Below are positions 20,673-26,175 of a stretch of 39,099 nt of DNA, piece after piece. The notes beneath the pieces are model-generated. The model was not told the origin of the DNA and made no database searches. It saw only the letters and a program-made list of their open reading frames with translations. The translations under genes and the position numbers were made by a program. Each line of letters starts with the position of its first letter. Position 1 is the stretch's first letter. The DNA is from an uncultured Phycisphaerales bacterium (GTDB lineage Bacteria > Planctomycetota > Phycisphaerae > Phycisphaerales > UBA1924): contig CALLYM010000211.1 of NCBI GenBank assembly GCA_937858155.1, forward strand, positions 1 through 39,099. The letters are read 5' to 3'.

Positions 20673-21566
20673 CTAGTCCTTCCCGGCCACCCGCTCCATC
20701 TTCAGCACCCACTCCTCAAGGGGCACCCACCTCAGCAGGTCCAACTCCAACGCCTTGCCCGGCAGTTGCGGGTGATCGGGTCGGATGCGGAGCGTGATGA
20801 ACACCTTGTCCCACTTGCTCTTGTCGAACTCGGAGATGTCGCCGGGCGCGACCGCTTCGCCCGTGGGGAGCGTCAGCGTGCTCGTCGCGTGTTCAAACCG
20901 GTACACCCGTGACCGCACGCGTAGAACAGTTAGGATGAGGTATGGCCCAAGGAGGAAGCCAAAGGCTACAAAGAGCCACTGAGAAGGAAGGTCGTACCAC
21001 GAGAGGGGTGAGTAAGGCGGCGGCTTCCCCTTGTCGTCGAGCTTTGTCCATGTTGTTCTCAGCTGGTTCAGGCGTTCGCCGGCGGACGGCACCTCCAGGG
21101 CCTTGCCCGCCTCATGACGGAAGTCGGTGCGGGGGAACCGGGTGTTCTCCGCCTTGAGCCGCCCTATCGAGGCCAACTGCTCGAGCCACTTGAATTGGTT
21201 TGTTTCGACAGGGGTCATCTGACCGCCGTCGCCGCTCTTTGCTTTGAGCCTGGTGAACACCTCTTGCGGGTTTTCAACGCTCGCGGAGGTGTTGGTGACA
21301 GAGCCCGCGCTGCGCGCGAGTTCGTCCAGGTATTGGAACTCAAAGCACTCGGCCGCGCGCGCGCCGCGGTTTGGATACACAACCATCGCGTCGATCAGTC
21401 CCCAGACACCAATGCCCAGGCAGAGCACAATGTAAATGACCATGTTGCGCAGCCACTTGGGATTGGGCCGCGTGACGGTGATCGACGGGTCCGGCTCGGA
21501 TGGTGGGGCAGGAGCAGGCTCGGCGTCTGGTACCTGCGTCGGGGTCGAGGCGTCTTCGTGCGTCAT
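20673..21566 (-). CDS. Two-helix membrane protein of unknown function
   Basis: A 297-residue protein starting at ATG 21566, chosen because the upstream part of the frame lacks protein character. A Pro/Asp/Glu-rich N-terminus precedes a first helix (MVIYIVLCLGIGVWGLIDAM). About 120 polar residues follow (YLDELARSAGSVTNTSASVE, FKWLEQLASIGRLKAENTRF), then a second helix (QWLFVAFGFLLGPYLILTVL). The cytoplasmic C-terminal domain has a PH-like beta pattern (VYRFEHATSTLTLPTGEAVA, then ISEFDKSKWDKVFITLRIRP, LLRWVPLEEWVLKMERVAGK). No family is recognised. It is in a same-strand run with the small gene at 21598 and DUF456. Confidence 0.7.
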   Translation of the reverse strand: MTHEDASTPTQVPDAEPAPAPPSEPDPSITVTRPNPKWLRNMVIYIVLCLGIGVWGLIDAMVVYPNRGARAAECFEFQYLDELARSAGSVTNTSASVENPQEVFTRLKAKSGDGGQMTPVETNQFKWLEQLASIGRLKAENTRFPRTDFRHEAGKALEVPSAGERLNQLRTTWTKLDDKGKPPPYSPLSWYDLPSQWLFVAFGFLLGPYLILTVLRVRSRVYRFEHATSTLTLPTGEAVAPGDISEFDKSKWDKVFITLRIRPDHPQLPGKALELDLLRWVPLEEWVLKMERVAGKD

Positions 21567-21597: not shown

Positions 21598-21825
21598 TCA
21601 GTCCACGCGCTCGAGCGCGACATCCCACCACTTTTTCGCCAGCTCCTGACCGTTGCCGCGTGCGAGCAGCTTGCCGAACCCGCCCTCGTCCGACCGCCGC
21701 AGCGGGATGCGCGGGTACTCACGCCCCGACGCGAGCGCCTCGGTGAGCCACGCAGAGTGCGCGTTGCGCATCATCTCGCCCACCGAGAGCCCCAGCCCCT
21801 GCCCAAAGAGACGCTCAAAGAACAT
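21598..21825 (-). CDS. Small conserved-looking protein, 75 residues
   Basis: A compact frame from ATG 21825, with no membrane helix or signal. It is mixed and charged, with motifs such as MFFERLFGQGLGLSVGEMMR, NAHSAWLTEALASGREYPRI and a Trp-rich end KKWWDVALERVD. It occupies the gap between the pseudo-ALDH gene and the membrane protein at 20673, 31 bases before the latter's start, on the same strand. No family is recognised. Its amino-acid composition is that of a real soluble protein and no opposing frame is more convincing. Confidence 0.6.
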   Translation of the reverse strand: MFFERLFGQGLGLSVGEMMRNAHSAWLTEALASGREYPRIPLRRSDEGGFGKLLARGNGQELAKKWWDVALERVD

Positions 21826-21883: not shown

Positions 21884-23467
21884 TCAAGCCGCCTGCTTCC
21901 CCGTCCCCCATACCGCCCGGACGGCGCTCGGCATCTGAGCGCTCCGTGCCAGCACTTCGGCCGAGGGCGTCGGCGTGACCGCGCCGGCCAGGGCCCGGTC
22001 GTTCTCGGAAACGGGTGTGCCCGGGAGCATCGAGACGCCGCTGGGGAGGACCTTGCCCAGCCCGTGCCGCTTCGCGCGTCCTGCCTCGTACCACCAGCCG
22101 AGCAGGCGTGCGGCCCAGTCGATTTTCCACTGTGGAATTGCGGCGGCATACCGCGCCGCGTCGTGACGGCCTGTCGTGAGTGTGACGGGGCGGGTCATCG
22201 CCAGAAGGCCCTCTTCACCGCCAACCACGCCCATACCGCCCGCGGACGCGTGGCCCACGCCGGGGTGCGTCGTCGGCGCCCCGCAGTCGTTGACAACGAC
22301 CGCAGACACGTGCAGGCGCGACGCCAGGCTGGCCGCCGTGCCCACCTTCTTCGTGAAGATGCTCACGCTGGCGTGCTGGTCGCAGCGGTTGTGGATCGCG
22401 AGGGCCTCCTCGACGTTCGCACACTTCACGATGGCCGCGAGGGGCCCGAAGTGCTTGCCCTCGACCACCTCCATCCCCGCCTCGCAGTCGATGAGGGCGG
22501 TGACGCGGAAACGCGTGGTGGATTCTTCGCGAGGGATGTTGCTTCCAAGCTTTGGCGGCATGGGTGTGAGGAGCCCCGCATCGCGCGCGCCGCGCCCGAG
22601 GGCCTTGCTCACCAGTTCCCGGCACCGGGCCGACGACGCCTCGTCGATCAGGTCCACTTCACCCGCCTTGCTCGCCAGGCGGATGAGCTCCTTGATGAAC
22701 TTTTCGTACGCCTTGTCGAGCACCAGCACGCGGCGGGGCGAGATGCCCGTCTGCCCGCCGTGGAGGTTGAGCGCACCCCACACCGCACGCGCGGCCTTGC
22801 GCGCGTCCGCGTCCTCAAGCACGAAGACGCTGTCGCGCCCGTTGAGGGTCATCACCGCGGGGGTCATCGTCTTGACCGTGGTCTGCGCGATCCTCTCGCC
22901 CGTCTCGGCCGAGCCCGTGAACATCACGTGGTCAAACGGCTGCGTCTGTAGCATGTTCGCCGCGGCCTCCCGGGCCGCCCCCGTCCAGGAAAGCACGCCC
23001 GGCGGCAGGCCCGCCTCCACCGCCAGTTCGAGCAGCCGCGTGTGGGTCTTGGGGCACTTCTCGCTGGGCTTCACCACCACGCTGTTGCCGGCCGCCAGCG
23101 CGTGCGCAATCTGCATGCCCAGGCCCAGGAGCGGGTTGGACCAGCAGGCGATGATGCCCACCCGCCCCAGCGCCACCCGGCGCTCCACCGCCCGCACGCC
23201 GTACTTCCACCACGGACCGCCAGGCACCTCACGGTCGCGCAGCAGCCGCCCGGACGCGTCCTCCAGCCACGCGAGCCCGGCCAAGAGCGGCGCTACCTCC
23301 GTGAACAGCGTCTCCCCGCGCGGACGGTGGACCTCATTTTCAACCAACGAGCACAACTGCCGCTCGTTGGCGGCGATCAGCCTGCGGAACCGCACGACCC
23401 ATGAGAGGCGTGCGTCCAGGGACGTGGAGGACCAGGTGGAGCGTTCGTTGCGTGAAGTAAGCGGCAT
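21884..23467 (-). CDS. Aldehyde dehydrogenase-fold protein lacking catalytic Cys and Glu (probable pseudoenzyme)
   Basis: The 527-residue protein follows the ALDH fold: VALGRVGIIACWSNPLLGLG (cofactor strand), ALAAGNSVVVKPSEKCPKTH, MFTGSAETGERIAQTTVKTM, DSVFVLEDADARKAARAVWG, FGPLAAIVKC and the late Asn-rich segment SAVVVNDCGAP. The two catalytic residues are gone. The usual ELGGK reads TLNGR (Glu to Thr), and GQxC reads GGQTGISPRRV (Cys to Gly). Oxidation through a thioester is therefore not possible, so a structural, binding or regulatory role is likelier. A C-terminal extension of about 90 residues (ALLGWWYEAGRAKRHGLGKV region) is extra. It diverges from ndh; no Shine-Dalgarno is seen at ATG 23467. 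Confidence 0.85.
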   Translation of the reverse strand: MPLTSRNERSTWSSTSLDARLSWVVRFRRLIAANERQLCSLVENEVHRPRGETLFTEVAPLLAGLAWLEDASGRLLRDREVPGGPWWKYGVRAVERRVALGRVGIIACWSNPLLGLGMQIAHALAAGNSVVVKPSEKCPKTHTRLLELAVEAGLPPGVLSWTGAAREAAANMLQTQPFDHVMFTGSAETGERIAQTTVKTMTPAVMTLNGRDSVFVLEDADARKAARAVWGALNLHGGQTGISPRRVLVLDKAYEKFIKELIRLASKAGEVDLIDEASSARCRELVSKALGRGARDAGLLTPMPPKLGSNIPREESTTRFRVTALIDCEAGMEVVEGKHFGPLAAIVKCANVEEALAIHNRCDQHASVSIFTKKVGTAASLASRLHVSAVVVNDCGAPTTHPGVGHASAGGMGVVGGEEGLLAMTRPVTLTTGRHDAARYAAAIPQWKIDWAARLLGWWYEAGRAKRHGLGKVLPSGVSMLPGTPVSENDRALAGAVTPTPSAEVLARSAQMPSAVRAVWGTGKQAA

Positions 23468-23641
23468 GATGGGGTCAATCTACGAACCAATTAGGCCCTC
23501 AATGGTGCCAACCCCATCCAAACCACCCAAACCGCGCGAACCTGCGACGAGAGCGCAAGGCGTGCGGGGTGCAAGGGGTTGGAGCGTGGGTTATCCGCTC
23601 CCCTGCTCGCCGTCCTTCCAGTTCCGTTTGTACCATCCGTG

Positions 23642-24949
23642 ATGCCTGTACAGGCGAGAAAGCGGGTGCTCATCGTCGGCGGCGGTTTCGCCGGCCTCGC
23701 CTGCGCCAAGGCCCTCCGCCGTGCGCCCGTCGAGGTGACGCTGGTCGACCGCCGCAACCACCACGTCTTCCAGCCACTGCTGTACCAGGTCGCCACCGCC
23801 GCGTTGTCGCCAGCACAGATCGCCGCCCCCATCCGGTCTGTGCTGGGAAAGCAGGTGAACACCCGGGTGCTGCTGGGCGAAGCAGTCCGAGTAGACCCGG
23901 ATCGCAAGCTCCTTTCCCTGGACCACGGCGATGAACTGCTGTTCGACTACCTGGTCCTCGCCGCGGGCGCGACCCACTCCTACTTCGGCCATGAGGACTG
24001 GGCCCCGCACGCCCCCGGCCTCAAGAGCATCGAGGATGCACTCGAAATCCGCCGTCGGTTCCTGCTCGCGTTTGAAGAGGCCGAACGCACCACCGACCCC
24101 GCTCTGCGTGGGGCGCTGCTCACCTTCGTCATCGTCGGCGCGGGCCCGACTGGCGTTGAACTCGCCGGGGCGTTCAAGGAAATCGCCCTCACCACCATCC
24201 GCCGCGACTTCCGCCGCATCGACACCCGCGACACACGCGTGATCCTCGTCGAGGCCATGGACCGCGTGCTGCCCGGCGGCTTCCCCGCGGCGCTTTCGGA
24301 CCGCGCGCTCCGCGACCTGCGCGAAATGGGCGTCGATGTCCGACTCTCGACCCGCGTCACGCACATCGACCCGCAAGGCGTCACGCTCGACGCGGGCGGA
24401 GCCCCGTCGCGCATCGCCGCCCGCAACGTGCTCTGGGCCGCGGGGGTGCGTGCGAGCGGCATCGCCGCGTCACTGGGTGTCGAGCTCGACCGCGCGGGCC
24501 GCGTCCTCGTGCAGCCGGACTTATCCGTCCCCGGCCACCCATCCATCTTCGTCACGGGCGACCTTGCGAACATCAAGGACCACCAGGGCAACCAGGTGCC
24601 CGGCATGGCCCCTGGCGCCATGCAGATGGGCGCGTTCGTTGGCAGGCTCGTCGCATCGGAGGTGGCTTCGAGTGAGAGGAGCCCGACGCCCGCCCGCCCC
24701 GCGTTCCGCTACGTGGACAAGGGCACCCTTGCCACCATCGGTCGCGCCCGCGCCGTCGCCCACATCCTGGGCGGCAACTATGGCGGCTTCCCCGCCTGGC
24801 TCTTCTGGGTACTCCTGCACATCGCGTACCTGATCTCGTTCCGGGCCAAGGTGCTCGTGTTCGTGGACTGGATCTGGTCCTACGCAACGTTTGGGCGCGG
24901 GGCGAGACTGATCACCGGCGGCACGGCTCGCACTACCCTCCCCTCATGA
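23642..24949 (+). CDS. ndh: Type II NADH dehydrogenase (NAD(P)/FAD-dependent oxidoreductase)
   Basis: A 435-residue peripheral membrane flavoprotein that passes electrons from NADH to quinone without pumping protons. The FAD-binding GxGxxG is in RVLIVGGGFAGLACAKALRR, the quinone-region motif in FQPLLYQVATAALSPAQIA, and the NADH-binding motif in TFVIVGAGPTGVELAGAFKE. The C-terminal FAD contact is IFVTGDLANI, followed by VPGMAPGAMQMG. A hydrophobic C-terminal stretch (WLFWVLLHIAYLISFRAKVL) serves as membrane anchor. I start at ATG 23642; upstream residues in the frame lack family match. The stop overlaps the kbl start as ATGA, so the two genes are translationally coupled. Confidence 0.92.
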   Translation: MPVQARKRVLIVGGGFAGLACAKALRRAPVEVTLVDRRNHHVFQPLLYQVATAALSPAQIAAPIRSVLGKQVNTRVLLGEAVRVDPDRKLLSLDHGDELLFDYLVLAAGATHSYFGHEDWAPHAPGLKSIEDALEIRRRFLLAFEEAERTTDPALRGALLTFVIVGAGPTGVELAGAFKEIALTTIRRDFRRIDTRDTRVILVEAMDRVLPGGFPAALSDRALRDLREMGVDVRLSTRVTHIDPQGVTLDAGGAPSRIAARNVLWAAGVRASGIAASLGVELDRAGRVLVQPDLSVPGHPSIFVTGDLANIKDHQGNQVPGMAPGAMQMGAFVGRLVASEVASSERSPTPARPAFRYVDKGTLATIGRARAVAHILGGNYGGFPAWLFWVLLHIAYLISFRAKVLVFVDWIWSYATFGRGARLITGGTARTTLPS

Positions 24950-26175
24950 CCACCCCCTTCACCGCCCGCACCACCTCCCTCTTCTCCTCCCTGCGCGACC
25001 AGGGCCTCTGGAAGGAACTCCAGACCATCGAAGGCCCGATGGACTCCGAGATCACGCTGAATCGCAACGGAAAAAAGCAAAAGGTTCTTTGCTTCTGCTC
25101 CAACAACTACCTGGGCCTCGCCAACCACCCCGAAGTCATCGAAGCCGGCACCAAAGCCCTCCGCGACTACGGCGCAGGCACCGCCAGCGTCCGCTTCATC
25201 TGCGGCACCTTCTCTCCCCACTGGGAACTCGAACGCGAAGTCGCCCGCTACATGGGGACCGAAGCCTCCTACTCCTTCGTCTCCGCGTGGACCGCCAACG
25301 AGGCCGTCTTCCCCACGCTCTGCGAGCCCGGCGACATCATCATCAGCGACGAACTCAACCACGCCTGCATCATCGACAGCATCCGCCTCGCAACGACGGT
25401 CAAGAAGGGCGTGCACAAGGGCGTCTACAAGAACAACGTCCTCGAAGGCGAAAAGTCCCTCCGCGCAGCCCTCGAAGCCGCACGCGCCAACAAGGAAGTC
25501 ACCGGCCAGATCTGGGTCGTCACCGACGGCGTCTTCAGCATGGAAGGCTCCATCGCCGACCTGCCCAAGATGCGGAAACTCTGCGACGAATTCAACGCCC
25601 TCCTCGTCGTGGACGACAGCCACGGCCACGGCGTCATGGGCACGCTCGGCCGCGGCACCCACGAGCACTGGGGGATGGTCGACCGCGGCACGCACAAGGG
25701 CCGCGTCGACATCTTCACCGGCACCCTCGGCAAAGCCCTCGGCGGCGGCGCGGGCGGCTTCGTCGCCGCGTCTCAGCAAGTCATCGACCTCCTCATCCAG
25801 CGCGGCCGCCCCACGCTCTTCAGCAACGCCCTCCCCGTCACCATCGCCGCGAGCGCCAAGAAGGCGATCGAAATCACCCTCCGCGAGCCCCAGCGCGTCC
25901 AGCGCCTGCGCGACAACGTCCAGTACGCCCGCACCAAACTCAAAGCCGCCGGCTTCGACGTCCTCCCCAGCCCGACCGCCATCTGCCCCATCATCGTCCA
26001 CGACACCGCCAAGGCCATTGCCATGAGCAAACGCCTCCTGGACCTGGGCGTCTTCGTCATTGGCTTCGGCTACCCGGTCGTCCCCGAAGGCCACGCCCGC
26101 CTCCGCTGCCAGATCTCCGCAGCGCACACGACGCAGCACATTGACACGCTGGTGGACGCGCTCCGGAAGTTGTAG
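24946..26175 (+). CDS. kbl: Glycine C-acetyltransferase (2-amino-3-ketobutyrate CoA ligase)
   Basis: A 409-residue PLP enzyme of the alpha-oxoamine synthase group. It cleaves 2-amino-3-oxobutyrate with CoA to glycine and acetyl-CoA in threonine breakdown. Landmarks are CSNNYLGLANHPEVIEAG, TASVRFICGTFSPHWELE (the Kbl-type version of this segment), VVDDSHGHGVMG with the cofactor Asp/His, and the PLP lysine in TGTLGKALGGGAGGF. The SVRFICGT segment favours Kbl over BioF or HemA. Length fits (about 400). Its partner threonine dehydrogenase (tdh) is not adjacent; instead it overlaps ndh by four bases. Coupling to an NADH oxidase could help reoxidise NADH from threonine oxidation, which is inference. 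Confidence 0.9.
   Translation: MTTPFTARTTSLFSSLRDQGLWKELQTIEGPMDSEITLNRNGKKQKVLCFCSNNYLGLANHPEVIEAGTKALRDYGAGTASVRFICGTFSPHWELEREVARYMGTEASYSFVSAWTANEAVFPTLCEPGDIIISDELNHACIIDSIRLATTVKKGVHKGVYKNNVLEGEKSLRAALEAARANKEVTGQIWVVTDGVFSMEGSIADLPKMRKLCDEFNALLVVDDSHGHGVMGTLGRGTHEHWGMVDRGTHKGRVDIFTGTLGKALGGGAGGFVAASQQVIDLLIQRGRPTLFSNALPVTIAASAKKAIEITLREPQRVQRLRDNVQYARTKLKAAGFDVLPSPTAICPIIVHDTAKAIAMSKRLLDLGVFVIGFGYPVVPEGHARLRCQISAAHTTQHIDTLVDALRKL

Follow-up and report, generated by a model that had tools for sequence, protein, structure and literature searches.

Aldehyde dehydrogenases of the AldH type belong to staphyloxanthin-type and squalene-route pathways to C30 carotenoids. The C30-carotenoid pathway, as outlined in PMC10448405, consists of HpnCDE leading to squalene, followed by CrtN, CrtP, the aldehyde dehydrogenase AldH, the glycosyltransferase CrtQ, and the acyltransferase CrtO. 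The function of the Planococcus AldH was demonstrated in E. coli, according to the summary given in PMC7764019, and C30 carotenoids formed via squalene are described from a planctomycete in PMC12078418. Forms without the usual residues are also on record in the aldehyde dehydrogenase (ALDH) superfamily, human ALDH16A1 being described as an ALDH pseudoenzyme that lacks the catalytic triad (PMC10650815).

The window analyzed here, a stretch of 39,099 nucleotides from an uncultured Phycisphaerales bacterium, encodes an ALDH that shares features with both systems. Its orthologs accompany CrtI-family, acyltransferase, and glycosyltransferase genes, the enzyme kinds named together with AldH in the outline of PMC10448405; the link between these orthologs and the C30-carotenoid AldH rests on gene content and not on sequence kinship. 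The window copy differs from such an enzyme in that it is without the Asn, Glu, and Cys of the active site and in that the other pathway genes were not found in its genome. It has in common with ALDH16A1, as that protein is described, an ALDH domain without the catalytic triad, a likeness of description; unlike ALDH16A1, it is a single-lineage ortholog of active-looking enzymes that appears to have been orphaned by pathway loss. Since inactive ALDHs such as ALDH16A1 are already known, the kind is not new; what makes this case interesting is its connection with a lost pathway. In a literature search of openly licensed PubMed Central texts, no inactive carotenoid AldH appeared in the titles and abstract openings of the papers listed, which is not proof of absence.

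The active ancestor and the original context are hard to recover for many pseudoenzymes. In the window case, triad-bearing orthologs survive in the same genus, the apparently lost pathway can be named, and the loss of residues coincides with the absence of the pathway, so that it becomes testable what keeps a protein once its chemistry is unneeded. The case also carries a caution: judged by its ALDH annotation alone, this genome would be credited with a step of carotenoid synthesis, although a search for carotenoid genes in it found none.

A full-length aldehyde dehydrogenase without the catalytic residues

The gene is an intact minus-strand open reading frame (ORF) of 527 codons running from ATG to TGA (Table 1). 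The protein matches the Pfam Aldedh profile over residues 8 to 427 (profile positions 41 to 458 of 461; 2.9e-67), and the match scores 227.7 bits (curated cut-off, 23), which places it in the ALDH superfamily. Its best solved relative by sequence is GapN, the non-phosphorylating GAPDH (3prl), with which it shares the ALDH domain over window residues 9 to 427; GapN keeps ELGGK and GQRC, whereas the window protein does not. Alignment with the solved ALDHs 3prl and 9ihb, and likewise with the orthologs, showed that GQxC reads GQTG (Gly241) and that ELGGK reads TLNGR (Thr207). Two further changes had escaped the sequence-only reading: Ser110 replaces the oxyanion-hole Asn, which lies in WNYP in the orthologs, and Asn236, before GQ, is replaced by His. 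The catalytic positions are named here by what we take to be their roles in ALDHs, and their conservation was computed in this study. With Gly241, Thr207, and Ser110 in place of the Cys nucleophile, the Glu base, and the oxyanion Asn, the protein does not have the makeup of a catalytic ALDH; its catalytic motifs are missing by sequence, as in an ALDH pseudoenzyme. In comparison with the orthologs, VKPSE (Lys133), FTGS, and HFGP are intact. A single-sequence AlphaFold2 model of the window protein was uninformative on the fold (mean pLDDT, 37.2).

Table 1. Features of the window at and around the ALDH gene (positions are those of the window).
Feature	Position	Strand	Basis or remark
ALDH-fold pseudoenzyme, ortholog of C30-carotenoid-associated aldehyde dehydrogenase (AldH type)	21884..23467	-	Pfam Aldedh 2.9e-67; 100/100 nesting in genus
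Oxyanion-hole Asn position, residue 110	23138..23140	-	TCC Ser; Asn in 114/114 orthologs
General-base Glu position, residue 207	22847..22849	-	ACC Thr; Glu in 114/114 orthologs
Catalytic Cys position, residue 241	22745..22747	-	GGC Gly; Cys in 114/114 orthologs
C-terminal extension, about residues 432-527; its helix region is related to the one in the genus mates	21884..22174	-	Sequence comparison
Divergent NADH dehydrogenase-2 (NDH2)-like gene	23579..24949	+	Occupies position of CrtI-family gene (crtP by inference) of G083 and G301
75-aa ORF, 58 bp downstream of ALDH	21598..21825	-	Homolog after carotenoid glycosyltransferase in G301, G167, G262, and G260
Protein of ~297 aa, no Pfam match, probable membrane protein by eye	20673..21566	-	Homolog after operon in G167, G262, and G260

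The sequence-only reading had described a full-length ALDH with an intact frame, retained cofactor-binding motifs, and altered GQxC and ELGGK motifs, and all of this agrees with the comparisons above. Its description of the C-terminal extension as added did not hold. An extension is also present in the three genus mates and in many family members and carries a related aromatic helix (GWWYEAG in the window protein; RWWYGAG and GWWYGAG in two of the mates), and the extension is therefore not an addition of the window copy. Nothing in the analysis points in particular to the NAD-sensing function that had been suggested.

The plus strand contains stops in the register of the ALDH ORF. A frame of 488 amino acids is open on that strand, antisense to the ALDH and without a Pfam match (window 22176 to 23642); antisense ORFs of similar size also lie over several orthologs, and the frame is probably an effect of GC-rich DNA. 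The window has a GC content of 0.655, and because DNA of this kind holds a 488-amino-acid open frame on the plus strand, the open ALDH frame alone is weak evidence.

Orthologs and phylogeny

At the order level, 301 genomes sampled evenly from a larger set were searched, and 102 had a match at 1e-60; at the family level, 60 of 163 genomes had one at 1e-50. Each of the four genus genomes examined has one close ALDH match. The loci of the order, genus, and family searches were pooled with the neighborhood stretches into 114 orthologs, excluding the window, where kinship means best match plus common motifs and 33 of the 114 were placed in a tree with the window. Asn, Glu, and Cys are kept in all 114, including the 3/3 other genus members. 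The alignment has 113 rows that could be scored at all three catalytic positions, of which 113/113 are normal, and the remaining ortholog (L029) was read from its full ORF. The sequence-only reading had asked whether the Thr and Gly were conserved in orthologs and had set beforehand that normal orthologs with the window copy as the outlier would speak against it; this is the pattern that was found, with Glu and Cys in 114/114. A conserved family of pseudo-ALDHs was rejected, as the triad is present in every ortholog. The inactive form occurs in one genome and is shared by no relative examined, and conservation of the inactive state therefore cannot be shown.

The window sequence departs from the orthologs at 14/58 near-invariant columns, compared with a maximum of 3 for any other correctly aligned row, in a count that includes the L029 row (cut to the wrong domain); the count over 67 columns and the drift simulations given below exclude that row. 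In the tree, the window ALDH is nested in a genus clade of four with 100/100 support, as sister to G083 (91/86), and so groups with genus ALDHs whose genomes have the pathway genes. Its end branch measures 0.77, versus 0.28 for L008, 0.25 for L037, and 0.48 for L009, the genus mates. A scan of the genome collection with the window protein gave 40 pattern stretches and no relatives.

Two other explanations of the altered residues can be weighed against these comparisons. An error of sequencing, assembly, or binning might be suspected in a source genome as fragmented as this one (296 contigs), but many codons are altered independently and in frame, by one to three bases each and with no compensated frameshift, the codon-position GC matches that of the mates and neighbors, and the gene falls in its genus clade at 100/100; an artifact is scarcely credible. 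The protein might also still be an enzyme, one whose chemistry has shifted or is new. Position 108, in the oxyanion loop, is Thr in 111/113 orthologs and Cys in the window protein, where it could serve as a displaced nucleophile; the cofactor motifs are kept, and there are pseudoenzymes in which catalytic residues are known to have migrated (PMC10211241). Such an enzyme would nevertheless have to work with the base Glu and the oxyanion Asn lost as well, and Cys108 may be a chance change. We regard displaced chemistry as improbable.

Carotenoid gene context of the orthologs

CrtI-family ORFs were present in 16 of 20 ortholog neighborhoods, with the acyltransferase family in 13 and the glycosyltransferase family in 13. 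The commonest order was a divergent CrtI-family gene, the ALDH, a second CrtI-family gene (TIGR02734, 4.3e-114), an acyltransferase (PF01553, 1.6e-6), and a glycosyltransferase (PF00535, with HpnB/CruG-like matches only below the cut-off). Under the scheme of PMC10448405, crtN and crtP would be the two CrtI-family genes, and hpnC and hpnD would be the SQS_PSY pair; this gene content suggests a carotenoid role for the ALDH orthologs. Within the family, CrtI-family genes were found in 59/59 other ALDH-bearing genomes, in 55 of them with a spacing of at most 3 kb, and in at least 4 of 103 genomes without the ALDH; at most the best 8 candidates per genome were scored (the best 8 of 16 for the window genome), so the zeros in this comparison are soft. 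G053, G152, G224, and G305 have CrtI-family matches without this ALDH at the thresholds used and may hold partial pathways or fragments. In G152 and G305, the matches are short and fall below the cut-off.

Pathway genes not found in the window genome

When all 12 candidates of the window genome were scored, none was a CrtI-family gene, and scoring of all candidates likewise gave no SQS_PSY gene, no HpnE over the cut-off, no glycosyltransferase, and no acyltransferase. Each of the three mates has two CrtI-family genes, two SQS_PSY genes, and one each of HpnE, the glycosyltransferase, and the acyltransferase, where two of the three acyltransferase matches read through one stop. The count is thus 0/7 pathway genes found in the window genome and 7/7 in each of the 3 mates, and among the ALDH bearers of the family, the window genome alone is without any CrtI-family gene found. 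Weaker, short HpnE matches occur at the start of the model in every genus genome.

It could be proposed that the pathway is present but unassembled, with the inactive ALDH acting as a partner subunit and its chemistry carried out by another ALDH. The window genome is 82.8% complete in 296 contigs, so that the absence of any single gene is weak evidence, and it contains six other ALDH matches, all at 30% identity or less. Against this, all seven genes were not found although they are dispersed in the mates, over three places in G301, four in G083, and six in G298, and the 8/8 ALDH-bearing genomes of the family that are at most 82% complete have CrtI-family genes (G318, G319, G324, G328, G329, G333, G342, and G345). 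In addition, a different gene occupies the divergent CrtI-family position next to the ALDH, and searches of the window for remnants of crtN, the acyltransferase, and the glycosyltransferase (from L064) and of crtP (from L051) revealed none, the best E value being 0.73. We therefore consider a hidden pathway very unlikely.

Uneven loss of constraint

With 113 orthologs as the reference, departures at near-invariant columns number 13/26 in the three catalytic loops versus 5/41 elsewhere (p = 0.0014), for loop limits that were first drawn after the departures had been seen. The loop excess has the same direction at thresholds of 70, 80, 90, and 97% (p, 0.001 to 0.008). The departing residues at 99 and 214 are not specific to the window, the same change being present in the sister L008. 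None of the three mates showed a loop excess passing 0.05 at the thresholds used, and L037 ran in the opposite direction at 70%.

In a plain branch model, omega = 1 across the window branch was rejected (LRT, 85). When omega was left free on that branch, it did not differ from that of the other branches (LRT, 1.1). Synonymous sites are saturated, which leaves both omega and the branch lengths ill defined, the window branch lying at the bound of 20 in the plain omega model and in the first tail model, with lengths of up to 200 in the second. Because silent sites were saturated in the plain model, we turned to a site-class model and ran it on control branches as well. This three-class codon model, fitted to 428 codons of nine sequences, allowed the window branch a neutral tail, which came to 0.79 substitutions per codon in the catalytic loops and 0.08 in the rest of the gene (LRT of 16.1 over a tail common to both), as estimated for one genome on a terminal branch that mixes periods before and after the loss. 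When the loops were set as the motifs plus or minus 6 residues and the branch bound was raised, the tail was 0.70 versus 0.06 (LRT, 14.7), and the value of 0.06 outside the loops was indistinguishable from zero (LRT, 1.2). On the control branches L008, L009, and L037, the catalytic-loop tail was at its lower bound. For L037, the remainder of the gene has a tail of 0.08 (LRT against no tail, 4.6), and a small tail outside the loops is therefore not special to the window.

These results bear most directly on the possibility that the gene is a relic in early decay, drifting as a whole after pathway loss, with its frame intact through recency and because few stops arise in GC-rich DNA. The pathway genes not found in the window genome and a window branch longer than those of the mates would both be expected of such a relic, and when whole-gene drift to the observed 18/67 changed columns was simulated, between 2.5 and 28% of runs remained free of stops (16.5 to 54% at half of the observed change; six settings, 200 runs each). 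The departures are concentrated in the loops, however, and the codon model leaves little or no neutral tail outside them; moreover, under an assumed rate of 1 indel per 20 substitutions, the frame would stay intact in <0.1% of cases at the observed change. Early decay is accordingly unlikely in our judgment, although it deserves to be kept in view. The sequence-only reading had concluded from the intact frame and the retained segments that the gene was not decaying. Simple decay does fit poorly with the uneven changes and the codon model, but the open frame alone is a weak argument in GC-rich DNA.

A possible route to non-catalytic retention

We favor non-catalytic retention over early decay, at roughly three to one, and give a probability of about 60% to the reading that the window ALDH is an orphaned C30-carotenoid AldH, the remainder of its pathway lost, its catalysis lost in one lineage, and the protein retained in a non-catalytic capacity. 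This reading joins the orthology with the carotenoid-associated ALDHs, the loss of residues in one genome, the pathway genes that were not found, and the uneven loss of constraint, all of which were observed; that the orthologs act on carotenoids, that activity was lost, in which order the changes came, and that a new role arose are inferences drawn from them. The lineage would first have lost the rest of the C30-carotenoid pathway and left behind the aldehyde dehydrogenase, the step from carotenoid aldehyde to acid. With the substrate gone, constraint on catalysis would have ended, and the loops with the oxyanion Asn, the base Glu, and the nucleophile Cys may then have changed, the cofactor-site motifs and the core presumably staying under purifying selection. 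As those motifs and the core appear constrained, the protein most likely persists non-catalytically, for instance as a partner that serves structure or assembly or that binds a dinucleotide. A more demanding form of this proposal is that a biosynthetic enzyme became a non-catalytic protein after loss of its whole pathway and was selected for a new role, with triad-bearing orthologs in three sampled sister species; we put this exaptation of a pathway orphan at even odds.

Genes around the ALDH

Homologs of both genes downstream of the window ALDH (Table 1) stand together at the end of the carotenoid operon in 3/20 neighborhoods (G167, G262, and G260). The window locus resembles what would be left of an operon that had shed crtN, the acyltransferase, and the glycosyltransferase. 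We infer this step of operon gene loss instead of reading it from the locus because the homolog of the membrane-protein gene sits elsewhere in the three genus mates. On the other side of the ALDH and divergent from it, the NDH2-like gene is followed by a class I/II aminotransferase gene, the two overlapping at their ends (window 23579 to 26175, plus strand).
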